A stretch of DNA of 64,000 nucleotides from positions 1 through 64,000 of the forward strand of contig NZ_LMQN01000007.1 in assembly GCF_001425355.1 (NCBI RefSeq), given 5' to 3'. Every line of letters starts with the position of its first letter. The first letter of the stretch is position 1. The position numbers and the translations under genes are program-made. Of this stretch, positions 46,439 through 64,000 are shown one piece after another. The stretch comes from Chryseobacterium sp. Leaf405 (GTDB lineage: Bacteria > Bacteroidota > Bacteroidia > Flavobacteriales > Weeksellaceae). The notes under the pieces were generated by a model. The model saw only the letters and a program-made list of their open reading frames with translations, had not been told where the DNA came from and searched no databases.

Positions 46439-47731
46439 ATGGCATCAGTAAGTTTTTTTATTAGAGGGAAAGTAGCAGATAAAGAAAGTACAATTTGGGC
46501 AAAGTTTAGAGATAAGGATATTGATATACGTCTTCCTGTTCCGTATTTGAGCTGTAAACCAAAAGAATGGAAAGAGGGAAGGTGTAAAATGCCGTCTAAA
46601 AAAATGCATAAAGATGATGCTGAAACTATAAACACCCGTCTTTCACAATTAGAAGCTAATATTATTTCAAGTTATACGGAGGATAATCCAGAAATCGATT
46701 TAAAAGGATGGCTGAAATCAATTATAGAACCTACAACTTTAAAAGCTGAAGATAATAACTATTCGGATGACGTGATTACTTTTATTGATACTTATATATC
46801 TTTAAAAAAAGATAGTGTTACGGAATCGACTATTAAGAAGGCTAATGTTGTTAAGCAATTAATGATAAGATATGTAGCTGATAGAAAAATCAGAAAGAAA
46901 ACATTTAGAGGTTTAAAGTTTAAAGATTTAGATAATTCTTTTAGAATTGATTTTGAAGATTATTGTAATAAGGAGAGCTACAAGATTTCAACTACATATC
47001 GCAACCTTAAATTCTTAAAAATGATTTGTAAAGTTGCAGGTTCTTTTGATATTGACGTTCATAAGCATGCGGAATTATGGAAATTTGAAGTTGAGAAAGC
47101 AACAAAGCATATTCCCAAATCTATTTATTTAACATTTGAAGAATTAGATAAAATTGAACAGAAAGAAATGCCACATGATTATTTAGATAATGCAAGAGAT
47201 TGGTTACTTATCTCTTGTTATACGGGTCAACGTGTGAGTGATTATATGAGATTTAATTCCTCAATGATTATTGAGGATAGTGACGGACAAAAATACATTG
47301 AATTTACCCAACAAAAGACTAATGCCAAAATGCAAATTCCTTTATTAAAAAAGGTTCAGGATATTTTAGCAAAACGAAATGGAGAGTTTCCACGAAAAAT
47401 ATCGGATGTAAAACTAAATCTTTATATTAAGAATGTATGTGAGATTGCTGAAATAGATGAGATTGTATACAATGGTAGAACTGAGACGATAGAAAAAGAT
47501 GGGAAGAGTATTACACGCAAAGTTTTTGGCAATTTTCCTAAACATAAACTTGTTACATCTCATATAGGAAGAAAAAGTTTTGCTTCTAACTTTTATGAGA
47601 AAATTCCTACTACTTATTTGCTTAATTTTACAGGGCACACAACAGAAAAACAGCTTTTAGCATATATCAATAAAACAGAAGTAGAAAAGGCAAAGTCAAC
47701 TGCAAAAATATTTAACAGTTTAGGGTATTAA
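46439..47731 (+). CDS. tyrosine recombinase/integrase
   Basis: Site-specific integrase of 430 aa in the Bacteroidota mobile-element style. Residues about 1-75 form the arm-binding domain (SVSFFIRGKVADKESTIWAK), about 105-220 the SAM-like core-binding domain, and 230-430 the catalytic domain. The active site is intact: Arg265 (CYTGQRVSDY), His375 and Arg378 (SHIGRKSF), His400 (NFTGHTTEK) and Tyr409 (AYINK). It lies next to the presumed att remnant and carries the tandem repeats in its leader, so it is the probable mobiliser of the element that follows. Confidence 0.93.
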   Translation: MASVSFFIRGKVADKESTIWAKFRDKDIDIRLPVPYLSCKPKEWKEGRCKMPSKKMHKDDAETINTRLSQLEANIISSYTEDNPEIDLKGWLKSIIEPTTLKAEDNNYSDDVITFIDTYISLKKDSVTESTIKKANVVKQLMIRYVADRKIRKKTFRGLKFKDLDNSFRIDFEDYCNKESYKISTTYRNLKFLKMICKVAGSFDIDVHKHAELWKFEVEKATKHIPKSIYLTFEELDKIEQKEMPHDYLDNARDWLLISCYTGQRVSDYMRFNSSMIIEDSDGQKYIEFTQQKTNAKMQIPLLKKVQDILAKRNGEFPRKISDVKLNLYIKNVCEIAEIDEIVYNGRTETIEKDGKSITRKVFGNFPKHKLVTSHIGRKSFASNFYEKIPTTYLLNFTGHTTEKQLLAYINKTEVEKAKSTAKIFNSLGY

Positions 47732-52877: not shown

Positions 52878-53005
52878 ATCCATTATTGAAAGATTTAGAT
52901 GATTTAATGAAATATGATTTACAGGAAATCTTAAAAATTAATAGTTATATTATTCAATTAGATTTGATATGCTTCGAATATGACTCAAAAAGGTTGGTAA
53001 TTTGA
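52874..53005 (+). CDS. 43-aa hypothetical protein coupled to the VirE-N gene
   Basis: ATG at 52874 overlaps the TGA of the upstream gene (ATGA) and opens 43 codons to a TGA at 53003-53005. The product begins MNPLLKDLDDLMKYDLQEIL, is acidic and helical, and matches no family I know. The overlap type equals that of two other gene pairs in this element, which argues that it is translated. The remaining bases to 53080 are AT-rich leader of the next gene. Confidence 0.5.
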   Translation: MNPLLKDLDDLMKYDLQEILKINSYIIQLDLICFEYDSKRLVI

Positions 53006-53080
53006 GCACAAAAGATAATTTCATATGATATTAATTTTAATTATTAGAAGAAAAGTTATATATTTTTATAAATATAATTT

Positions 53081-56000
53081 ATGAAAAACATTTATGATCC
53101 ATGTAATTGTGGAAGTGGGAAAAAGATAAAATTCTGCTGTGGTATAAAAGGGAATAATGATACTAAATTTAACTTATCGACATATATAAATAATAATAAT
53201 TCAACAGAATTGCTGAAAATTTTTGCTTTATTACAGGTTTTACCAGAGAATAGTTCGAAAATATTAAGACTTCAGAATATACAAAAAGTTATTTTACAGA
53301 ATTTAAATACGAATCATGATGCTATTAATTATGAAATTCTCAGAAATGTTGTAAAGAAAAATTTTCCACCGCTTGAACATGAAGATCCTAATGAATGTTG
53401 CTTTGTTGAAAACATAATGTTTTTCAATGGAAATAATTTGGTGTTTACTGGGATTACAGATAATACGCGTGAGATAAATCAATATATAATTGATAGCATA
53501 ATTTCTGACAATGATAAAATATCATCTGAATGTAAAAAAGAAATTTTTGATGGTATAAAATTTCTTTTGCATATTCATCATGAAATAGCACTTAAACTTA
53601 ACATAAAAAGAAACGAATTTATTGAGAATTACAATGAAGTATTAGAATTCCCTTCTAACGAAAACTTAGAGAACTATAAAGATTTATTCGTTTTTAAACC
53701 AGAGAGTATTGATAAAATCTGCATTGATAATGAAATAGATAAAAATATAATCAATGAATTTTTATTAGATATAAAAGTTCTTAACTCAACTGATGATATA
53801 CTTGATTTAGATTTACTAAAGAGACCATTTATTAATTATAATGGAATGTACTATTTGTATTTACCATCTGCCGAAATGCATGTGCTAAACCAATTTGTAG
53901 TTAGTAAGTTAAAGAAATATAATGAGTTGAAAAAATTTGAGGCAACTTTCTATGATCATTTTAGATATATGTCAATTAAAACATTTCTTAAAATGTCTTG
54001 GACTCTTAATGATCATTTTGAACATTTTGATATATTTCAATTTGATACTAATAAATTCGCAATTGTGGAATATAGAGTATCTGACTCTACCTTTAATACA
54101 AAAACTATTATTGATTTTGTAGAAAGTCAAAATAAGAGTGATGAGTTTATTTACATTACACTAGTGGGAATTTTTGATAAAAAAGGTTTTGGTTATATTG
54201 AGCAAAAAAAAATAAATGGTATTAAATACTCATTCATGCTAACTTTAATGGAGTTAAATATTCTAATTGTACTATGGGATCTAAATAGATTATCAATATG
54301 GAAATATTTAGTTGCAGATGATATAAGAAATAAAGAAAGTATTCTAATTCCTAATTTATATAATATTCTTGTTAAATATTATTGGTATCAAAAAAATAAT
54401 TATTCATTTTTACCTAATGATAAAGCGACCCCAGAGCTTATACATTTTGATTTTAAACTTCAAGGTGCTCAGGCTATAAATGCTATACAGAAAACTGATA
54501 AACATGTGGTTTTGTTTTATGAGTTAAACGGAGATTTAGTTTTTCGATCAGTTACAAGAACCGAAACTTACGCACCAATTTATTTATCTGAAAATTTTAT
54601 TAATGGATGGCTTGAAATTGTTTTAGAAAGATATAATTTTCCTATATGGATTACTAGCACTTTAAGATATGATTCTCTAACTAAAAACTTTGCAGATTCT
54701 ATTCTTTATTGGTTAAATAAATTTTATCCAGAATTGAAAAATTATATTGATAATTATAAATATCCAATAAATGTAGAACTGAGATTTGATGTTGCATTCC
54801 ATAATTTGGATGGTTTTGATTTTAATCACATAAAAGACTTTTCAAAATCGAGCTTAGATTATATAATAGATTATGAAGTAAAAAAAATATCAATTGATAT
54901 TCCATTTGCCATGTATAATTTATTTAAAAAAAATGATAATTCTGGAGAAAAAGTATTGTTGCAAACTGTTTTAATAGGTATATCTGATCTTTTAAATTAT
55001 GATGATATTTCTCTCTCTCAAGATAATATCGATACAATTTTTTCAGAATTTATGCCATTAAGTATGGCTAAAATGATAATTGCTTATGATAATTATGATA
55101 ACATAAGATATGATAATAGATTTATTCCTCAGCCAAGATATTTGGAGGAGGCTGACACATCAATAATTTTGCAAAATTTAATTAGTTGGGGTAATATAAA
55201 TATTTCAACAACATTTGATACTAGAGACAAAAAGATTGAGATTTGTAATTTTATTATCAAAACATTAATAGACAAAGTATCAGATATCTTGGTCAATTAT
55301 AATACAATCGATTTAATACAATTTGTAATGTTACGGAACGAATCTCTACTACATCAACATTCATTTAGCAAAATAAGGATGGTTACATATTATGAATGTT
55401 TTAAAGATCATATTGATGCCTTTAATGATTTTTTAGAAAAAGATAATAGAAATGTTAGGACAAGACATGCTACTCGCGGATTAATTGAGTTTATATTGGC
55501 CGAAAAACATCTTGGGACTAAAATGCCAAATGATAACGACATAGATTTTCTTACATCATTGCTAGATGAGATTTCTTTTTTTGGAAATATGCTAGATTCA
55601 ATTAAATTTGAATTTAATGATCCTGATATGTCTATATTACCATCAAAGAGACTTGGTATTAATTATAGTTTTCATAATAAAGTAAATCAGTATAATTTAG
55701 AAATGAAAAAGGATGAACATATAGATTCTATAAACTATTTTACTGATATATATGAAGATCATAGTGACCAAAGTGCTTATTATAATAAAATAAATAAGAT
55801 ATATGATGAAGACCTTGGAATAGCCCTATTTAAAATCATTGCAACATATGATAAACTATCTAGATTTATTTTAGAAAATAAAGTATCCGTATATGTATTT
55901 AAGACTTCTGATTTTCATCTCTTTTTAAAGCAGGAATGTGAATTGACGGAAAAGGAAATTCATGGGTTCATAAATAATTTTGTTTTAACGTCGAGAGGTG

Positions 56001-56683
56001 AGATCAGTAAACCTCCACAAAATTATCAATATTCAGATATTCAGCCTTGGAGATATAATAGATCTTTATCTTATTTGATAAGACCAATTGTCTTTGTTGA
56101 TGAATGTTATATAATTAGTGCAAGGCATTTATCTAGTTCAAGTGAAAACTATTTGGCGAAATTTATGGATGGAACTATTAAATATGATAAAAAACTAAAA
56201 GGACTTGCTAAACTTCAAGCAGAAAGAAATAAGATTAAGGGTACACAGTTTAGAAAAGAGGTTTATGAATGGTTGAAAAATGAATATAACAATTTAGAAA
56301 TAATTCCGTATGAATTTAATATAAATCATAAAATAGCTGATAAGAACTATGGGGATATTGATATTTTAGCTTTTGATAAGAATAAAAAAATTATTTACTC
56401 CATTGAATGTAAAAATACTAAACAAGCAAAAATAATATATGAATTCACAACTAATATCAAAAATTATGTAGAAGATAAACTGCCATTACATAATAACAGG
56501 AGGATATGGTTAGAAAATAATCTTAAAAAAATGTCTATTGAATTCAAATATGATTTTACTGATTTTAAAGTTAAATCAATTCTAGTGTCCTCATATAAGC
56601 TTCCTTTAAATATGATTGGGAATATTAAAAATGTTGAAATATTTTCATTAAATGAATTAAAAAGAAAAGTAGTCACCTTCTAG
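53081..56683 (+). CDS. large SEC-C/PD-(D/E)XK nuclease protein
   Basis: A 1200-aa protein. Residues 1-22 are a SEC-C zinc motif: DPCNCGSGKKIKFCCG with Cys8, Cys10, Cys19 and Cys20. About a thousand residues follow that I cannot assign; they are helical, rich in Asn, Asp, Ile and Tyr. The last 130 residues form a restriction-type nuclease domain (NERD/Mrr-like): GTQFRKEVYEWLKNEYNN, then GDIDILAFDKNKK and YSIECKNTK, giving the acidic pair Asp1092/Asp1094, Glu1109 and Lys1111. Alone on the plus strand, it converges on the six-gene minus-strand defence operon with 28 bases between stops. The N-terminal zinc motif suggests binding to RNA, ribosomes or a partner; a defence role is inferred from context. 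Confidence 0.72.
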   Translation: MKNIYDPCNCGSGKKIKFCCGIKGNNDTKFNLSTYINNNNSTELLKIFALLQVLPENSSKILRLQNIQKVILQNLNTNHDAINYEILRNVVKKNFPPLEHEDPNECCFVENIMFFNGNNLVFTGITDNTREINQYIIDSIISDNDKISSECKKEIFDGIKFLLHIHHEIALKLNIKRNEFIENYNEVLEFPSNENLENYKDLFVFKPESIDKICIDNEIDKNIINEFLLDIKVLNSTDDILDLDLLKRPFINYNGMYYLYLPSAEMHVLNQFVVSKLKKYNELKKFEATFYDHFRYMSIKTFLKMSWTLNDHFEHFDIFQFDTNKFAIVEYRVSDSTFNTKTIIDFVESQNKSDEFIYITLVGIFDKKGFGYIEQKKINGIKYSFMLTLMELNILIVLWDLNRLSIWKYLVADDIRNKESILIPNLYNILVKYYWYQKNNYSFLPNDKATPELIHFDFKLQGAQAINAIQKTDKHVVLFYELNGDLVFRSVTRTETYAPIYLSENFINGWLEIVLERYNFPIWITSTLRYDSLTKNFADSILYWLNKFYPELKNYIDNYKYPINVELRFDVAFHNLDGFDFNHIKDFSKSSLDYIIDYEVKKISIDIPFAMYNLFKKNDNSGEKVLLQTVLIGISDLLNYDDISLSQDNIDTIFSEFMPLSMAKMIIAYDNYDNIRYDNRFIPQPRYLEEADTSIILQNLISWGNINISTTFDTRDKKIEICNFIIKTLIDKVSDILVNYNTIDLIQFVMLRNESLLHQHSFSKIRMVTYYECFKDHIDAFNDFLEKDNRNVRTRHATRGLIEFILAEKHLGTKMPNDNDIDFLTSLLDEISFFGNMLDSIKFEFNDPDMSILPSKRLGINYSFHNKVNQYNLEMKKDEHIDSINYFTDIYEDHSDQSAYYNKINKIYDEDLGIALFKIIATYDKLSRFILENKVSVYVFKTSDFHLFLKQECELTEKEIHGFINNFVLTSRGEISKPPQNYQYSDIQPWRYNRSLSYLIRPIVFVDECYIISARHLSSSSENYLAKFMDGTIKYDKKLKGLAKLQAERNKIKGTQFRKEVYEWLKNEYNNLEIIPYEFNINHKIADKNYGDIDILAFDKNKKIIYSIECKNTKQAKIIYEFTTNIKNYVEDKLPLHNNRRIWLENNLKKMSIEFKYDFTDFKVKSILVSSYKLPLNMIGNIKNVEIFSLNELKRKVVTF

Positions 56684-56711
56684 TTCTTAAAATATAAAGC
56701 CTTGTAATTAA

Positions 56712-57530
56712 TTAAAACTTACGTTCATTATATTTTTTCAAAAAATTATATAAATCTTCACTCACACCTACTGGATCTCTAAAAATTTCACTTCCAGAAT
56801 ATCTTATTACATCATAACCGTTTGATTTTAAAAGGCGATCTCTTCTTCTATCGTTTTCAAAAGACTGCTTTGAACTATGAAATTGAAAGCCATCACATTC
56901 TACAATAAGCTTTATTTTTTTATTTCCTGGGCACCAAACTAGTATATCAGGTCTAATACTTTTATTGTCGATTTTGAAATTTGGAAATTCGGGTTGTAGT
57001 GTAATGTGATAGGAGTTAAAAGTAAAATTCTTAACGATATAATAATGTTCCCACACCTCATAATAATCGACTTCAGTATATTTTCCCACATTAATATACG
57101 TTTCTTTGAAGAATGTTTTAAAATTTGTTAAATTAGAATCCCCTGTAGTATTTTTATAATTATTAATGAGTTTTAAAATTGCCTTATGGTTTTTACGGTA
57201 ATTTCTCATACTGTCTTCTATATCAGGTAGACGTGGAGTTATAGAAAACCCAAGAATTCTATTTTTTATGAATAAAAGAAGTAGTGAACTAATGAAAATT
57301 CTTTCTATTGGTGATTGACAGTTTTCAAAAATCAAGTCAGCATGTAATTTCGAATAATTTTCTGTATAAATAGAGTAAAAATTTGAATAATTAAGTTGAT
57401 TTTCAGGATTTTTTTCTTTTTCTGTTATCTCCTCAGTAGACTTTTTAACAAAGAATTGGAGCAAAGGCAGGAAGCTCTCCTTCGATTCCAAACTTTTTCT
57501 TAACAGGGAAAGTTCATCTTTTGGTAGCAT
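56712..57530 (-). CDS. DUF559/Vsr-like PD-(D/E)XK endonuclease
   Basis: A 272-aa protein whose C-terminal 90 residues form a very-short-patch-repair-like nuclease of the DUF559 group: IRPDILVW (Asp195), LIVECDGFQFH (Glu211, Asp213), then FENDRRRDRLLKSNGYDVIRY and SGSEIFRDP, the standard order of conserved elements. SPIER (about residues 73-77) is the conserved acidic site often found upstream in this family. The N-terminal half is helical and specific to this protein. It is the last gene of the operon, 35 bases after the PLD-EVE gene. It probably nicks or cuts DNA. Confidence 0.82.
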   Translation of the reverse strand: MLPKDELSLLRKSLESKESFLPLLQFFVKKSTEEITEKEKNPENQLNYSNFYSIYTENYSKLHADLIFENCQSPIERIFISSLLLLFIKNRILGFSITPRLPDIEDSMRNYRKNHKAILKLINNYKNTTGDSNLTNFKTFFKETYINVGKYTEVDYYEVWEHYYIVKNFTFNSYHITLQPEFPNFKIDNKSIRPDILVWCPGNKKIKLIVECDGFQFHSSKQSFENDRRRDRLLKSNGYDVIRYSGSEIFRDPVGVSEDLYNFLKKYNERKF

Positions 57531-57565
57531 AGCTTAGAAATGTCTTTTTATAATCGGGATATTGT

Positions 57566-58615
57566 CTAGATTTTTTGTAATTCATAATCTATTTTGAAGA
57601 CTTTATCTAATATATATTTTCCAAATTCCTGTGTGATTTTTAACTTGTCAGCCCCTTGCATTAGACTTCCATACGTGTTCTTACCACTTGGTGTAATATT
57701 GAATGATGTTTGAGATAGAAATAAACTTTTTTGATTTGATATTGTTATGTTATTTTTCATCCATTCCCTCCCGTAATTTGGAGTAAGATTTTTGCCAACA
57801 ATATAAAAGGGCCATCGACTTTCCTTATTTACATTTTTTATTTCAGAATTTACTTTAGATATGGAAAGAATTTTTAAATGCCCAACAGCATAAGAGACTA
57901 TAATATCTCCCATTTTTATACCGCTAGGCCGTTTGGAAAAATGCAAATCACTATCTATTAAATCAAACTTTTGAGTTAATGGCACTAAATCATCGGTGAC
58001 ACCAATAGGTTTCAGCCAAAAGGTTGTTTTATTATTCAGGTCAAAGTAATTATCTTTATTTTCAAGTAATAAGGATAAGTTCAATGTTAATAATTCATTT
58101 ACATTTTGAGTTATAGGTGTTTGTTCTATCTTTTTAAGAAATGAATCAATATTGAGTTCATTTAAACTTTTATGCTTTACATTTTCTATTATTCCATTTT
58201 TTATTTTATTAATTTCTATGAAATTATTAATTAAAACTCCCCACTCGTTGTTAATTCTTAGACCACTATCAGTAAAATTTGCGGATGTTATGATTGCTTT
58301 AACACTGTTATTATTTTCAGCAATGAAAACTTTTCCATGAAGCGAATTATCAATCTGAATTTCAAACTCGATGTTTTTAAGATTCAAAATATTATATAGT
58401 TGTTTAAAATATAAGACTTTTGAATACTGATCTACATCGTAAGGTTTTAATGTTGTAATTATTGTTATCTTTTCTAAATGAGAAAAATCACCAAAATTAA
58501 TAAGATTTATATTTTTTGTGATAAATGGACTAATTATAAAAATCTTTTTTGCTGATTTAAAAATTTCATTTAGATATTTTAAATGATTATCCCTAGTTAA
58601 ATTATTTATTATCAT
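57566..58615 (-). CDS. PLD-family nuclease with C-terminal EVE/PUA-like domain
   Basis: A 349-aa protein with two parts. Residues about 5-135 match a phospholipase D-type nuclease: IFIISPFIT, then the HxK site LHGKVFIAE (His93, Lys95; Glu100 replaces the usual Asp) and ITSANFTDSGL followed by NNEWGVLI. Residues about 197-300 resemble an EVE/PUA-like base-binding domain: TTFWLKPIG, IKMGDIIVSYAVGHLKILSISKV and RWPFYIVGKNLTP. EVE domains recognise modified DNA bases in modification-dependent restriction systems, so this may be a nuclease directed at modified phage DNA. The PLD part is well supported; the EVE assignment is from pattern only. Confidence 0.7.
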   Translation of the reverse strand: MIINNLTRDNHLKYLNEIFKSAKKIFIISPFITKNINLINFGDFSHLEKITIITTLKPYDVDQYSKVLYFKQLYNILNLKNIEFEIQIDNSLHGKVFIAENNNSVKAIITSANFTDSGLRINNEWGVLINNFIEINKIKNGIIENVKHKSLNELNIDSFLKKIEQTPITQNVNELLTLNLSLLLENKDNYFDLNNKTTFWLKPIGVTDDLVPLTQKFDLIDSDLHFSKRPSGIKMGDIIVSYAVGHLKILSISKVNSEIKNVNKESRWPFYIVGKNLTPNYGREWMKNNITISNQKSLFLSQTSFNITPSGKNTYGSLMQGADKLKITQEFGKYILDKVFKIDYELQKI

Positions 58616-58642
58616 GCAGGATTTTATAAAGTTTACAAAATT

Positions 58643-59170
58643 TTAAATATCATTTTTGAAATTTTCCTTTACAGTATCATTTAGGCTTAACCATTCCTGT
58701 AACACAACAATTACGCTTTTTAATAAAATGTAATTCCGAGATTCATCCTCTTTGTAATTACCGTTAAATTTTCCACCGTGAAATAAATTATTTCTGACAT
58801 CTCTAATTGATAAAGAAAGTTTATTAATAAGTGGTTGGTTTATATCACCAACTCTAGGTTTCCATTCAAGGTTTCCATCTGAGAATATTTGTACTTTAGG
58901 TGGATTATTTTTTAGATAATTTACAGCTTCTTCCAATATTTGATTTGTAAAGGGGTTGAAATTTTCTCTTATTGATATTATAAACCCATCCCAATCAGGC
59001 TGAAGTTTAGTTTCCGACCTATTATGATAACCAGATTCTTTTAATGCACATTCAAACCTAGAGAAAATTAAAAAAAAATTATAAATCAGATGTTGACCGT
59101 TCTTATCATAAGTATTGTTAACTTTTTCCAAAAAAAATTCAGTTATAGTTGGTTTAGCTTTTTCATTCAT
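58643..59170 (-). CDS. HEPN-domain protein, probable RNase
   Basis: A 175-aa all-helical protein with the HEPN hallmark RX4H: RNNLFHGGKF (Arg126, His131), near the end of the third helix, and a first helix FLIFSRFECALKESGY typical of this family. HEPN proteins are metal-independent RNases found in abortive-infection and toxin-antitoxin systems. The gene lies between the RusA-like and PLD-EVE genes with gaps of 19 and 27 bases. No separate antitoxin (e.g. MNT nucleotidyltransferase) is next to it, so control may come from the operon partners. Confidence 0.75.
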   Translation of the reverse strand: MNEKAKPTITEFFLEKVNNTYDKNGQHLIYNFFLIFSRFECALKESGYHNRSETKLQPDWDGFIISIRENFNPFTNQILEEAVNYLKNNPPKVQIFSDGNLEWKPRVGDINQPLINKLSLSIRDVRNNLFHGGKFNGNYKEDESRNYILLKSVIVVLQEWLSLNDTVKENFKNDI

Positions 59171-59189
59171 AACTTATTAGAATTAAATT

Positions 59190-59951
59190 TTATAAATTAA
59201 TGTTCTTTAATGTGTTTAAAATACTAGAAATGTCAATGTTTTTTTTGTTACAAATTTCTTCAAAAGCTGTACTGGTCAAAATTCGATTTTTATCAAATCC
59301 CACAAGTCTCGTTCTGTGAAATTCATATTCAGAATAAATTAAAAGTCTTTCTAAATTAGCATTAGCATTTTTTTTAAACGAATCACTTAAAATTCTTTTA
59401 GCTTTCATGATTCCAATGAAGAATTTCATTATTTGCAATTGATGCTCATTATCTAAATCAATATTCAAAGGCATGTATACAGCTGATCCAGTTTGAATAA
59501 AACATAAGTTTTCCTTCATTATTGAATAGTCATTATTGAAATTTATTATAATCTTGACTATGTTTCCTTCGATAGTTCCATTTTTTGAAGTCCATGTTGA
59601 ATGGAAAGAATTAATTTGAGAGTCATCAATTAAAACCCCAGAATGCCCAGTTAACGAATCTAAAAGAGGTTTGGTAATATTATCTAAATCTCCAATTTTA
59701 TCAGTTTCTTGTTTTTCTACTGCATCAATAAACCAATGTATTTCAACTTGTACTTTACCTAAAATTAGCCATTTGAAATTTCTTAATTCATTTTGTATAT
59801 CTTGTATAAGTATGTCTTGGGTTTGTTTTTTTGACTGAGCGGTAATGATTCTTTTAAAATTGGAATCGATCTCTATGGAACTATCTGCAAATTCTTCAAT
59901 TAAGTAAGGAGATTCAAAATCACAATTTTTATTTATAATTTTAACATTCAT
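59190..59951 (-). CDS. RusA-like Holliday junction resolvase with extra C-terminal domain
   Basis: A 253-aa protein. Residues about 30-140 match the RusA family: KIGDLDNITKPLLDSLTG (Asp88, Asp90, Lys94) and VLIDDSQI (Asp109, Asp110), which correspond to the catalytic Asp/Lys set of E. coli RusA. About 110 residues follow that are unlike RusA (helical, with LERLLIYSEYEF). RusA proteins resolve four-way DNA junctions and are usually prophage genes of about 120 aa; an enlarged form inside an OLD/helicase operon is unusual. It begins 3 bases after the helicase stop. Confidence 0.8.
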   Translation of the reverse strand: MNVKIINKNCDFESPYLIEEFADSSIEIDSNFKRIITAQSKKQTQDILIQDIQNELRNFKWLILGKVQVEIHWFIDAVEKQETDKIGDLDNITKPLLDSLTGHSGVLIDDSQINSFHSTWTSKNGTIEGNIVKIIINFNNDYSIMKENLCFIQTGSAVYMPLNIDLDNEHQLQIMKFFIGIMKAKRILSDSFKKNANANLERLLIYSEYEFHRTRLVGFDKNRILTSTAFEEICNKKNIDISSILNTLKNINL

Positions 59952-59954
59952 AAT

Positions 59955-61127
59955 TTATATTAATTTATAATGTTTAATTTGATTTCCTTCAGTTTCAATA
60001 TTATTTACGATAGCAACACTATATCTTGCTCTAGTTAGAGCTACATAAAGCTTAGATCTGCTTGTTTCTGCTAACTCTGATTTATTATCAACAAGCCATG
60101 CTAAAAATGGTTGGGTAGGATAAATTAATACTCTATCAAAAGATAATCCCTTAGATTCTCCGAAGTTCATGACTTTGAAATTTTCATTAACAAGTTTTCT
60201 TTTATTATCTCTTAATTGCATAGGATTGAAATTTAATAAATAGTTTTCAACATCTTTTTCCTTAATAAAAAAAACACCATCATGTCCAGTAATAATTTCA
60301 TTTCCAGACTCTGTTCTTTGAAATTTTGGAAATAAATCATTTGATAGGTCGCAAATTGCTTTATTACATCTGTAATTTATTAATAATGATTTTTTATCAG
60401 TATTAATTTTCATTGTTTGATCTTGGAAGAAATGAACAATACTCGACTTTGTAAACTGTTTATTTTTTGCAGAAATGTTAGTAACATAAGTGCCTTGCCT
60501 AGGATCACCAACCATTAATATTTGAGATGAACTATTAAAAAGTAGTTTGAGCAATTCTAAATCGTAACCAGCCAAATCTTGAACTTCGTCGATGAATATA
60601 TGAGAATAAATCTTAGAGATTCTATTTATTAATTCCCCTTTAGACTTTTCATTGCTTCGTATAACAAACTTTGAAAGTTTATCAGAATAAATTTTAGTTG
60701 ATTTTGAAAAATAATGCTGTTCAAAATTTTTTTCCTCTGAAAAATATATAGGCTTTTTACATTTGGTACATTCTTCTTTTACGATGTTTTCCTTCTTACA
60801 CTTTTCACAAGGACTTGAATATGCTTTCAACCCAGATTTACCATTTACTAATATAAGTCCATTAATTTTTTTTTCAAATAGTGCCCCTTGGTAAGGTTTT
60901 ACACCATGTTTTAATAAAAAAGAGAACCAAGTTTGGACAGTTATATTTTCTGGAATGCATTTGTTCTTTGTCACAAATTTTCTTTTTATTTCTGACTCAT
61001 TAGCTTGTGTGAAAGTTGTAATTAAAACCTTTTCCTTTTTTTGTTTAATCGCCTCATCTATTAGAAAGGTTGTTTTACCAGAACCTGCAGCAGCTATAAT
61101 TAGTTTATTATTTTGTTGTAATTGCAT
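59955..61127 (-). CDS. UvrD/Rep-like superfamily 1 helicase with zinc ribbon (GajB-like)
   Basis: A 390-aa SF1A helicase, the expected partner of an OLD-type nuclease in Gabija-like systems. Walker A AAAGSGKTT (Lys18), Walker B HIFIDEVQDLAGYD (Asp180, Glu181), motif III VGDPRQGTY, motif IV NYRCNKAI, motif V ESKGLSFDRVLIYP and motif VI YVALTRARYS are all present. A four-Cys zinc ribbon is inserted between motifs Ia and II (CEKC at 107-110, CTKC at 120-123), and the 1B/2B domains are much reduced, making it shorter than typical GajB (about 490 aa). Its ATG lies 20 bases inside the OLD gene, so the two are translationally coupled. Confidence 0.85.
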   Translation of the reverse strand: MQLQQNNKLIIAAAGSGKTTFLIDEAIKQKKEKVLITTFTQANESEIKRKFVTKNKCIPENITVQTWFSFLLKHGVKPYQGALFEKKINGLILVNGKSGLKAYSSPCEKCKKENIVKEECTKCKKPIYFSEEKNFEQHYFSKSTKIYSDKLSKFVIRSNEKSKGELINRISKIYSHIFIDEVQDLAGYDLELLKLLFNSSSQILMVGDPRQGTYVTNISAKNKQFTKSSIVHFFQDQTMKINTDKKSLLINYRCNKAICDLSNDLFPKFQRTESGNEIITGHDGVFFIKEKDVENYLLNFNPMQLRDNKRKLVNENFKVMNFGESKGLSFDRVLIYPTQPFLAWLVDNKSELAETSRSKLYVALTRARYSVAIVNNIETEGNQIKHYKLI

Positions 61128-62760
61128 CTAAAATATATTGAGGATAATTTAATTCATCATGCGTTTCAAATATTTTTAATGCACATTCAGTTTTATTACT
61201 TTTCATATAAATATGCATTTCATCATCTGTCTTAAAGTCTTTTTCGAAAATCTTATTCAATTTTTTAAGATTATTGACTTTTAAAAATTTGGGTTCTAAA
61301 GTATTATAATTAAAATTTTTATCTCCTATTTTCAAATTTCCACTATCTATTACACTGTCAAAACAAATTTCAATCCCGTCTTTAGCTTTATCACCTAAAT
61401 ACGCCTTATACTTTTTATTTAATGCATTAACGTTACCATCATTATCAGTAACTACTGAAACTTTAATTCCTAGTTTTTCTGCAATCTCTAAAAATCTTAG
61501 AAAGGAAGTTCCCACTGAAATTACATCTACAGCAGATTCAATTGGAAGTTTTCCATTATTATTTACCATAAATGCTTTCTGTACGACTAATTCATCTGAA
61601 TCCCCCTCAACTAATATGGCTTTTTTACAAAGAATTAATCGTAATGTATCATACCCAGATAATTTCTCGAAAAAAAGTTTTGTATCTGATGAAAGATCAT
61701 TTAATCTTAAAGTCTTTTTATTATTAAGTAATATTAAGTGCTCAAGCCCTAATTTATTTGCAACAAAACTACTATGAGTAGAAATTAAAATCTGTTTATC
61801 TTCATTGTCGTTTTTTATCTCATTGATTAACTGATTTAATTTTGAATAGGATAAATGATTCTCGGGTTCTTCTAGTAATATTATATTTGCTTCTTTTGCT
61901 TTTTTATGACCTAAAGCAAGCTTTGTTTTTACTAAACATTGTTCACCTTTTCCAATATAATGAAATAGAATGTTCTCTAAATAGGTAACTAGACTGTTTT
62001 CCCATGCATTCTTAGATGATAGTTCTACGGATAGTTCTACTTTTTTATCTGAAATTTTAGACACCGTTCTTATCTTCTCATTTATTTTTTTGATGGCTTC
62101 TGTACCCATGAAAAATTCCTTCATTTGCCTATGAGCTTGAGAAATTTCTACAACTTCATTTGAACTCAAAAATTCTTTTATAATTCTTGAGATGTAAATA
62201 TCCGATCCATTTTGAAACTTATTACTGGCCGAGTCTATAAGAGCAGATTTTATAGGAATAGACCTAGTTGTTATTCCTTCGTCACGAGAAAAGGTTGACC
62301 ATAGGATGTTATAATATTCAATTGGTAATGTTTTAATTCCTCCAATCTTTATAAGTTCTTCATATTCGTTTTGAAATTTATTATCAAAGCAAATTTTTAG
62401 TGAAAAACCGCTGGCTTTATTTGGCTTTTCTCCATGATAATCTCCCTCAAATTCTGCAACGTTATCTCCTTCAATAAAAATTTCAATTACTACCTCTGGT
62501 AAGCTTTGGGCAGTGTTTGCCTCTTCTAAGCTATTGATATATTCTTCTACGACTTCATTATTAAAAATATATTGGGATAATTCGTTTTTTAAATACTTAC
62601 CATTGTATAAGCCTGTTAGAGCAAGATGAATAGCTTCAATAATTGTAGATTTACCAGCCTCATTATTACCAACTAGTATATTGATCCCTTTATTTAATAT
62701 TATATGAAATTCCCCTTTGAAACTTTTAAAATTTTCAATATATACTTTTCTTATGTGCAT
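61108..62760 (-). CDS. OLD-family ATPase-TOPRIM nuclease (GajA-like)
   Basis: A 550-aa overcoming-lysogenization-defect endonuclease. The N-terminal ABC-type ATPase has Walker A LVGNNEAGKST (Gly31 to Thr39), a signature GKGEQCLVKTKLAL (about 270-283), Walker B IILLEEPENHL (Glu297/298) and the switch His in ISTHSS (His329). The TOPRIM domain follows with AILVEGDSDELV (Glu385) and VVTDNDGN (Asp439, Asp441). The length and order match GajA (about 580 aa), which cuts DNA when nucleotide pools fall. It heads the six-gene operon; the next gene is a UvrD-like helicase, the GajB position. Confidence 0.88.
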   Translation of the reverse strand: MHIRKVYIENFKSFKGEFHIILNKGINILVGNNEAGKSTIIEAIHLALTGLYNGKYLKNELSQYIFNNEVVEEYINSLEEANTAQSLPEVVIEIFIEGDNVAEFEGDYHGEKPNKASGFSLKICFDNKFQNEYEELIKIGGIKTLPIEYYNILWSTFSRDEGITTRSIPIKSALIDSASNKFQNGSDIYISRIIKEFLSSNEVVEISQAHRQMKEFFMGTEAIKKINEKIRTVSKISDKKVELSVELSSKNAWENSLVTYLENILFHYIGKGEQCLVKTKLALGHKKAKEANIILLEEPENHLSYSKLNQLINEIKNDNEDKQILISTHSSFVANKLGLEHLILLNNKKTLRLNDLSSDTKLFFEKLSGYDTLRLILCKKAILVEGDSDELVVQKAFMVNNNGKLPIESAVDVISVGTSFLRFLEIAEKLGIKVSVVTDNDGNVNALNKKYKAYLGDKAKDGIEICFDSVIDSGNLKIGDKNFNYNTLEPKFLKVNNLKKLNKIFEKDFKTDDEMHIYMKSNKTECALKIFETHDELNYPQYILDAITTK

Positions 62761-62810
62761 TTTTTTCTCAATTGTTAATTTAAATTTTTTGGTTATTGTT
62801 TAGTTGAAAT

Positions 62811-62818
62811 CAAATTTA
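62811..62818 (-). promoter_or_regulatory. -7 box of the defence operon
   Basis: TAAATTTG on the minus strand, 50 bases before the ATG of the OLD gene. No good -33 element is visible, so support is moderate. Confidence 0.35.
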
Positions 62819-62958
62819 CAAACTTTTATAACTTTTATCATTATCATCTATATTCGTAGTACAATATCATTAAAATTTGTGACTTGACTATCCGTATTTT
62901 TACTATATTTTATTACATAAATAGATCACATTATTCAAAGATTTTGTATATGAACCTA

Positions 62959-62990
62959 ACAAAAAAGCCTTGAACAACTGGTCAAGGCTT
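62959..62990 (-). terminator. terminator of the SH3-like gene
   Basis: AAGCCTTGA (62965-62973) pairs with TCAAGGCTT (62982-62990); six T follow on the minus strand. It separates the SH3-like gene from the defence operon. Confidence 0.85.
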
Positions 62991-63013
62991 AATTATTTGA
63001 AAAAATATACTCA

Positions 63014-63763
63014 TTAGTTCTTAAAATGACCAACCCACATGTAGCCCTCAAAATAGCCTGATTGGACTTTATAAGTGCTGTCATTATACTTTTCGATAAC
63101 AATTACTTTATTATTGATTGAATATCCAGTTTGTTTGCCATTCTCAGGTTTATCATATATGGGACTATTAGTAAAAACCTCCTGCTCACCAGTGTATGTT
63201 TTTACTTGTTTCGTAGGGTTGGTTGGTTCTGAAGTTTCATTTTTTGATACATAAGTAGAAGTAACATTTTTTATAATTGTATTCAATGAATCATACAGCC
63301 ATTGTATCACGCGATTAGTTTCATTTGCTGAAGAATAATTTATTCGAGTACGGTTAATCTCATTAACACAATTTTGTTGAAACGTATCATAAATAAGTTT
63401 CCTCTGTTCGTACGATAAATCTAAGTTTTTGATTTGATCAGAGATAGTATTAACAGCGTTTTGTAATTGCTGTACATTGTAATTATAATTATTTTGTTTC
63501 GCCGTCATAGCATTTCCTAATGCAGAAATGTCTAACTGTTGTGGATCTCTGTATTGTGTCGGTTGCCTAGATTGAGAAGTATTATTTGTTGTATAATATT
63601 CCCATTGTTTTGAGAAACTGTTGTATTTTTCATAACCAATCATATTCCCGTTAGAATCAAAATATTCATATCGGTTCTGGAATGAGTTAAACTTTTTGGT
63701 TGCTATTTGAGAAAAGCAAAGATGTCCAAGCAAAATACATACGGAAAAGATAAGTTTTTTCAT
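63014..63763 (-). CDS. secreted protein with C-terminal SH3-like domain
   Basis: A 249-aa secreted protein: signal peptide KKLIFSVCILLGHLCFSQ, then a YD-type repeat-like region (FNSFQNRYEYFDSNG, YNSFSKQWEYY), a polar Gln/Asn-rich helical middle with possible coiled coil (about 85-175), and a C-terminal bacterial SH3-like domain (about 193-249: QEVFTNSPIYDKPENGKQTG through GYMWVGHFKN). Such domains bind cell-wall or surface ligands. It has its own terminator and a long structured leader. It is unclear whether it belongs to the element or to the chromosome beyond it. Confidence 0.8.
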   Translation of the reverse strand: MKKLIFSVCILLGHLCFSQIATKKFNSFQNRYEYFDSNGNMIGYEKYNSFSKQWEYYTTNNTSQSRQPTQYRDPQQLDISALGNAMTAKQNNYNYNVQQLQNAVNTISDQIKNLDLSYEQRKLIYDTFQQNCVNEINRTRINYSSANETNRVIQWLYDSLNTIIKNVTSTYVSKNETSEPTNPTKQVKTYTGEQEVFTNSPIYDKPENGKQTGYSINNKVIVIEKYNDSTYKVQSGYFEGYMWVGHFKN

Positions 63764-63813
63764 AAGTGATTTAATGTATCACTCAGTCCCAAAGTGACGG
63801 TTAATTTAAACAG

Positions 63814-63968
63814 AAAGCGTGGGACTTAGGCTTACTGTTACTGAGGTACTGGTATACCTGATACACAAATAAACCAAGCCCACGCCAAAGCATGGGCATT
63901 AGGTCTATTTATCTCGTGTATCTTTAAATTACCAGTTTTCAGTAACAAGAATAAATAGCTAACGCTTT
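63814..63968 (-). ncRNA. 6S-like or regulatory structured RNA
   Basis: Reading the minus strand: closing stem AAAGCGT (63968-63962) with ACGCTTT (63820-63814); open bubble of 14 and 15 bases; stem TGTTACTGA (63947-63939) with TCAGTAACA (63844-63836); stem GATACAC (63922-63916) with GTGTATC (63866-63860); and terminal hairpin GCCCATGC-TTTG-GCGTGGGC (63897-63878) whose only non-Watson-Crick pair is a G-U on the minus strand, arguing for that direction. A -7 box stands at 64000-63993. The layout equals that of 6S RNA, which mimics an open promoter. Alternatively, since TCCCA in the bubble can pair with TGGGA at 63791-63787 and a further hairpin (63783-63765) abuts the ATG, it may be a cis-acting leader of the SH3-like gene. 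Confidence 0.45.
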
Positions 63969-63992
63969 ATTTTTCGTAAATGTTCTTGATTG

Positions 63993-64000
63993 CAAATATA
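63993..64000 (-). promoter_or_regulatory. -7 box of the structured RNA/SH3-like gene
   Basis: TATATTTG on the minus strand matches TAnnTTTG; the -33 element would lie outside the window. The predicted transcript start is about 20 bases before the closing stem of the structured RNA. Confidence 0.5.

Follow-up and report, generated by a model that had tools for sequence, protein, structure and literature searches.

A Gabija pair with a short GajB and four probable accessory nuclease genes in a Chryseobacterium defence island

The 64,000-nucleotide stretch of Chryseobacterium sp. Leaf405 analysed here (contig NZ_LMQN01000007.1, positions 1 to 64,000; the window) carries six consecutive minus-strand genes at 56712-62760. 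The first two are gajA and gajB, and genes 3 to 6 encode an extended RusA-type protein, a HEPN-type protein, a PLD nuclease and a DUF559/MTES_1575 protein. This locus, single-copy in its genome, is most probably Gabija of the ordinary kind, with a GajB that is short, and its probable transcript also carries four separately acquired accessory nuclease genes. A preliminary description of this DNA had presented the six genes as a candidate new defence system and had offered, as an alternative, adjacent independent genes sharing a transcript. It read the gene content correctly and over-read its novelty, since genes 3-6 were found in none of the best 80 GajA loci and the relatives of genes 3, 4 and 5 that were inspected occur apart; the alternative fits the gene distribution better.

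The identity of the first two genes is clear from model matches that run nearly their full length. GajA matches PADLOC model PDLC00102 over residues 1-548 (E value 1.2e-208), and GajB, of the short type, matches PDLC00148 over residues 6-388 (E value 1.6e-138). The gajB gene lies directly downstream of gajA, in the Gabija order, and overlaps it by 20 bases. The term short-GajB is a label coined in this analysis and denotes the Gabija models PDLC00102 or PDLC00098 together with PDLC00148 or PDLC00140. GajA also carries a Pfam OLD-like_TOPRIM domain (9.4e-13) and the motifs GNNEAGKST, LLEEPENHLS, VEGDSDE and DNDG; it is 53-66% identical to the GajA proteins of five plasmid loci, and a sequence search of solved structures with it returns PtuA (8ee4) and OLD (6p74). 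The PADLOC run, a check put forward in the preliminary description, bears out the Gabija assignment and the GajA-GajB order given there. Of the motif sets claimed there for both proteins, the four listed above were seen in GajA and GSGKT was seen in GajB. Residues 107-123 of GajB also contain a CxxC...CxxC pattern, a possible zinc ribbon, which is found in one of 77 other GajB sequences (locus L027) when a loose pattern is applied to tblastn-aligned segments.

The distribution of the other four genes carries the argument. A six-sequence GajA alignment was used to query 84,980 genomes, one per species, and the best 80 of at least 502 relatives served as GajA loci; they include Epilithonimonas bovis (72%) and Chryseobacterium polytrichastri (57%). 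At a tblastn threshold of 1e-4, a GajB relative is present in 79 of these 80 loci, while genes 3, 4, 5 and 6 are each found in none. Five plasmid GajAB loci from Bacillus, Buttiauxella, Rhizobium, Agrobacterium and Tistrella (53-66%) give the same answer, with genes 3-6 in 0 of 5. On plasmids as a whole, tblastn with GajA matches 2162 records at 1e-5, 1660 of them covering at least 80% of the query; identity is below 60% in 2161, so most are more distant GajA-like proteins, and it ranges from 66.2 to 40.7% among the 20 matches listed. GajA occurs at 1e-30 in two of 395 genomes of the window's order, namely the Leaf405 genome itself and that of a congener, G287. A listing-level check of the open-access literature found no described set of Gabija with RusA, HEPN, PLD and DUF559.

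Downstream neighbours were also surveyed by family. At 1e-10, GajB is found in 77 of the best 80 GajA loci, and the sequence available downstream reaches at least 2 kb in 66 of these, at least 5 kb in 59 and at least 8 kb in 53. A Pfam scan took in 113 same-strand downstream open reading frames (ORFs) of at least 80 amino acids, with a maximum of three from any one locus. Of the 77 loci, 45 supplied them; those whose first downstream ORF lies on the opposite strand, or that have no such ORF, contributed none. RusA, HEPN, PLD and DUF559 families are not among the 25 commonest of the 177 families found (each with two or three members), a result that leaves room for single cases, as families with one or two members can be hidden.

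Relatives of genes 3-6 were also sought in their own right, and the inspected ones of genes 3, 4 and 5 keep different company. Within 395 genomes of the phylum, gene 3 occurs in three, gene 4 in three and gene 5 in two, the Leaf405 genome included each time; gene 6 has no relative at 1e-8 in the 394 others. Among plasmids, gene 3 is found in four records, two of which hold an identical Xanthomonas protein (three neighbourhoods inspected), gene 4 in 35 (four neighbourhoods inspected) and gene 5 in one, from Priestia. The 19 plasmid matches of gene 6 are all partial, covering at most 48% of it; with no near full-length relative found, the co-occurrence test is one-sided for this gene. A tblastn matrix of the six window proteins was built over 19 loci, among them the five plasmid GajAB loci and 13 fetched through RusA, HEPN or PLD relatives. 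Twelve of the 13 contain only the family through which they were fetched, and the exception, on the Xanthomonas citri copper plasmid pCuR, adds a weak GajB match to its RusA. Distant GajAB genes could escape a search that uses the window's own proteins as queries; none was recognised beside the other RusA, HEPN or PLD loci in annotations or ORF starts.

These loci also bear on the proposal that genes 3-6, or a subset of them, form a separate multi-gene system that stands behind Gabija by chance. Genes 3 to 6 follow one another without a break in spacing, as such a system would, but none of the 13 loci with a gene 3, 4 or 5 relative, all outside the window's lineage, matches a second member of the set, and the proposal is quite unlikely. 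In a BREX (bacteriophage exclusion) operon on a Planktothrix plasmid (L018:4221-14795), PglX, a relative of the gene 4 HEPN protein, PglZ, a weak DrmC-like PLD protein and BrxL follow one another; the PLD-like protein there matches gene 5 over just 23 residues (E value 0.006). The Priestia relative of gene 5 adjoins an annotated SbcCD-D gene, an SMC-type ATPase (best PADLOC match LmuB, 3.1e-19) and an OLD-like gene (1.1e-53).

The one genome that shares a substantial part of the locus is that of G287, which belongs to the same genus and matches window positions 58461-63152 at 98.2% over 4.7 kb. GajA, GajB and RusA are intact there, with protein identities of 99.1, 99.5 and 96.0% and ratios of non-synonymous to synonymous substitution rates (dN/dS) of 0.10, 0.07 and 0.12, respectively. 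HEPN carries a one-base indel, a frameshift, in a poly-T run, and PLD matches up to residue 53 only. The remainder of PLD was not found elsewhere in the draft, nor were gene 6 and the Upx-like gene beyond it: a query with 52900-58640 gave no match beyond its first 180 bases. Synonymous rates (dS) differ among the shared genes (GajA 0.0375, GajB 0.0308, RusA 0.137, HEPN 0, start of PLD 0), which suggests a mosaic history; HEPN shows four non-synonymous and no synonymous changes, too few to judge. The shared segment of GajA, GajB, RusA, HEPN and the start of PLD is due to recent common descent. A DNA search of 21 genomes of the genus, G287 not among them, gave matches in seven, the Leaf405 genome included. 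One, G743, matches in two pieces, placed within the Upx-like gene by coordinate conversion, and five have matches of 25-55 bases only (E values 3e-4 to 9e-4); apart from the Leaf405 genome, none of the 21 holds the six-gene block.

A conserved six-part system is rejected on this distribution, and among the best 80 GajA loci and the five plasmid loci no six-gene set was found in unrelated genomes, the truncated G287 copy being the only one seen. It is accordingly very improbable that the six products work as one machine, an extended Gabija in which GajAB triggers and the RusA, HEPN, PLD and DUF559 nucleases execute. That arrangement would agree with the tight co-directional spacing, with the lack of a reported internal minus-strand terminator and with the part of the set common to G287. 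It does not agree with the absence of genes 3-6 from the surveyed GajA loci, nor with relatives of genes 3, 4 and 5 that occur without each other, and G287 itself retains GajAB and RusA while its HEPN is frameshifted and its PLD cut. The preliminary description had held that genes 3-6 never occurring with GajAB would count against its proposal, and this is nearly what is found, the exceptions being G287 and the Xanthomonas RusA. The combination looks like a local assembly rather than a new, conserved machine of six parts.

Gene 3 is the member of the set for which a closer tie to Gabija deserves weighing. Residues 37-121 match Pfam RusA (1.5e-8; 35.7 bits against a cut-off of 22.8), and the protein is longer than this domain by an additional C-terminal half. 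In six aligned sequences, the window's included, the core residues D88, D90, N91, K94, D98, D109 and D110 are invariant, as is a C-terminal FHRTR motif; among solved structures, RusA (1q8r) appears at 0.17, below chance-like IpaD matches. On pCuR (L009:7320-14797), a Septu pair, an extended RusA and a Gabija pair lie on one strand, with RusA 253 bases upstream of GajA-GajB. The Gabija pair there is of another sub-type (PDLC00071, E value 5.9e-294; PDLC00106, E value 1e-251). On plasmids of Pseudomonas aeruginosa (L010:4479-10816) and Paraburkholderia (L011:5929-10639), the extended RusA lies downstream of tyrosine-recombinase/integrase clusters, and it may belong to integrative units of that kind.

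One possibility is a three-gene core, with RusA as a genuine component of Gabija that cleaves the branched DNA which GajAB exposes, and with only HEPN, PLD and DUF559 as passengers. The pCuR arrangement and the intact G287 RusA with its low dN/dS favour this, and yet it is unlikely: RusA is absent from the best 80 GajA loci, and it occurs without tblastn-detectable GajAB in the stretches examined from P. aeruginosa, Paraburkholderia and two other genomes of the phylum, in the first two beside tyrosine recombinases. The Septu pair close by on the other side of the Xanthomonas RusA means that a general defence island explains the adjacency of RusA and Gabija there. A related version, to which only a small probability can be given, has a RusA with the conserved FHRTR part recurring in some Gabija systems as their third component; it would cut branched intermediates of replication or recombination that GajAB exposes, and HEPN, PLD and DUF559 would have been added in this lineage to yield a layered operon. 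Among the few RusA loci, the coincidence with Gabija in two lineages is a single additional co-occurrence and can serve only as a lead. If the link is true, Gabija would gain a structure-specific DNA nuclease.

Several points weigh against regarding genes 3-6 as separately acquired accessories. RusA lies near Gabija in two lineages with different GajAB sub-types, and this repeated proximity, together with purifying selection, means that RusA may not be just a passenger. The close spacing, with no internal minus-strand terminator reported, points to co-expression, for which joint function could be the reason. The survey of GajA loci rests on the best 80 of at least 502 relatives; three of the 80 are without GajB at 1e-10, 18 of the other 77 have less than 5 kb of downstream sequence, and relatives of genes 3-6 too diverged for tblastn would escape it. 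Lastly, the HEPN indel of G287 falls within a stretch of T residues in draft sequence, so it might have arisen as an artefact of sequencing.

The remaining three genes have nuclease-type modules of differing clarity. Gene 4 has the Rx4H motif RNNLFH at residues 126-131, unchanged across an alignment of five sequences that includes the window's own, and its Pfam HEPN_Apea match (E value 0.03; 15.2 bits) falls below the cut-off of 24.4. An Rx4H-type motif is described as the HEPN signature in PMC3710099. The N-terminal half of gene 5 matches Pfam RE_NgoFVII over residues 15-152 (2.6e-9; 37.0 bits against a cut-off of 23.8), and H93, K95, N113 and E124, which match the active-site positions of BfiI, do not vary in an alignment of three sequences, one of them the window's. 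Among solved structures, the restriction enzyme chain 2c1l (BfiI) is matched with an E value of 0.53 only. The C-terminal half of gene 5 is also conserved in one Priestia relative; in own-genome searches up to an E value of 10, it matches neither PF01878 (EVE) nor NgoFVII_C. Fusions of EVE with PLDc domains exist (PMC7641849), so the EVE label is still a possible one. In the C-terminal third of gene 6, residues 189-264 match Pfam MTES_1575 (5.8e-12; 46.0 bits against a cut-off of 38.2), there is a DUF559 match at 2e-9, and the solved structure 3hrl is found at 0.87. Single-sequence structure predictions gave mean predicted local distance difference test scores of 35 for gene 5, which is unusable, and 42 for gene 6, which was not used. 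The labels RusA and DUF559 in the preliminary description are thus upheld. HEPN has its motif in its favour and a sub-threshold score against it, and of the PLD-EVE label the first half stands while the second finds no match in the own-genome searches.

A phage origin of the extra genes was considered and rejected. Gene 3 has no match at 1e-3 in 50,697 phage records, and an alignment query of viral contigs with it returned 43 loci, as partial matches to the RusA core. Gene 4 has distant matches in five phage records and a PHROG match (1e-28) whose function is not annotated. Single-protein queries of viral contigs with GajA and genes 4, 5 and 6, which reach close relatives only, gave none confirmed.

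The layout of the locus is given in Table 1. After the overlap of gajA and gajB, consecutive genes are separated by 3, 19, 27 and 35 bases, and the ORF coordinates agree exactly with the strand and spacing first described. A terminator scan of 8 kb (56000-64000) reported no minus-strand terminator-like site within the six genes; the two on that strand, 63897-63878 and 62990-62965, are both upstream of gajA. It found four sites in all on both strands against 1.9 (standard deviation 1.7) in shuffled sequence, so the scan weakly supports one transcript. A single transcript for the six genes is plausible; no full match to a Bacteroidota promoter pattern was found near the operon.

Table 1. Features of the Gabija locus and the genes that follow it (window coordinates)
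Feature	Coordinates	Strand	Description
gajA	61108..62760	-	OLD-type ABC ATPase with TOPRIM nuclease domain, 550 aa
gajB	59955..61127	-	Short UvrD-like helicase-family protein, 390 aa
Gene 3	59190..59951	-	Extended RusA-type Holliday-junction resolvase, 253 aa
Gene 4	58643..59170	-	HEPN-type putative RNase, 175 aa
Gene 5	57566..58615	-	NgoFVII-type PLD nuclease with C-terminal domain EVE-like by eye only, 349 aa
Gene 6	56712..57530	-	DUF559/MTES_1575 nuclease domain behind N-terminal part without family, 272 aa
Terminator-like hairpin	62965..62990	-	Just upstream of gajA; possible upstream transcript border; consensus match only

The six genes lie in a stretch of distinct composition. Their guanine-cytosine (GC) content is 0.256-0.284, and 0.18-0.22 at third codon positions (GC3), against a GC content of 0.36-0.39 in four core genes; apart from a DUF5131 gene at 0.35, the nine island genes measured range from 0.25 to 0.31. 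The low GC content suggests that the island is foreign, and base composition does not separate genes 3-6 from GajAB. The low-GC stretch opens with a phage-integrase-type gene at 46439-47731 (Pfam Phage_int_SAM_5) and also carries a BT4734-like/PriCT gene and an ORF labelled ParB-like by reading, without a model match; no transfer RNA gene was found in the window. On the plus strand, 53081-56683 encodes a 1200-residue protein with a SEC-C-like start and distant similarity to the anti-phage protein Upx (PADLOC Upx 4.8e-26; NCBIfam Upx 115 bits against a cut-off of 1900); its gene converges with gene 6 at a distance of 28 bases. Beyond the window, contig positions 64047-66119 (plus strand; L156:4047-6119) encode a protein with HD-CE and HSP90-like ATPase parts, possibly another defence gene, which stops 71 bases from the contig end at 66190.

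Taken together, these data present a model of a short-GajB Gabija system within a mobile-looking defence island that is low in GC and carries an integrase gene. Gabija is triggered by phage-caused nucleotide depletion. For Bacillus cereus Gabija, PMC10568477 describes GajA as a DNA-nicking enzyme strongly inhibited by ATP, GajB as a DNA-stimulated (d)ATP/(d)GTPase, and the two as a 4:4 complex; it puts carriage of the system at an estimated 8.5% of 38,167 genomes. Judged by homology, the pair described here would act by the same route. Genes 3-6 would be expressed with it from one transcript as separately acquired accessory effectors and, less surely, would act as independent nucleases. From their domains, RusA would be directed at branched DNA, HEPN would serve as an RNase, and PLD and DUF559 as DNases. 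Gabija would not be expected to require them, given a gene distribution in which they are not conserved with GajAB. The locus shows how a known defence core can have unrelated nuclease genes added to its transcript. It also shows that close spacing, taken by itself, says little about whether a mechanism is shared.

A comparison with known systems places each part of the locus. It resembles Gabija in both genes, their order and the near full-length model matches, and differs in the four additional same-strand genes downstream, which none of the surveyed GajA or plasmid loci has. Gene 3 shares the catalytic region of the RusA Holliday-junction resolvases but has a long C-terminal part with the FHRTR motif and no match in phage records. 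Gene 5 is like the NgoFVII-type PLD restriction enzymes and the EVE-PLDc fusions (PMC7641849) in its N-terminal PLD domain and its conserved H93, K95, N113 and E124; its C-terminal domain, however, matches neither the NgoFVII_C nor the EVE model in own-genome searches, and no methyltransferase is encoded among the six genes. A parallel is provided by BREX operons, in which auxiliary and backup nucleases recur according to PMC12839542, so such add-ons are a known phenomenon. Although the core here is Gabija and the set was not seen to recur, both cases place HEPN, HKD/PLD and PD-(D/E)XK modules beside a defence core, and in Planktothrix a HEPN protein of the gene 4 family itself stands between PglX and PglZ.

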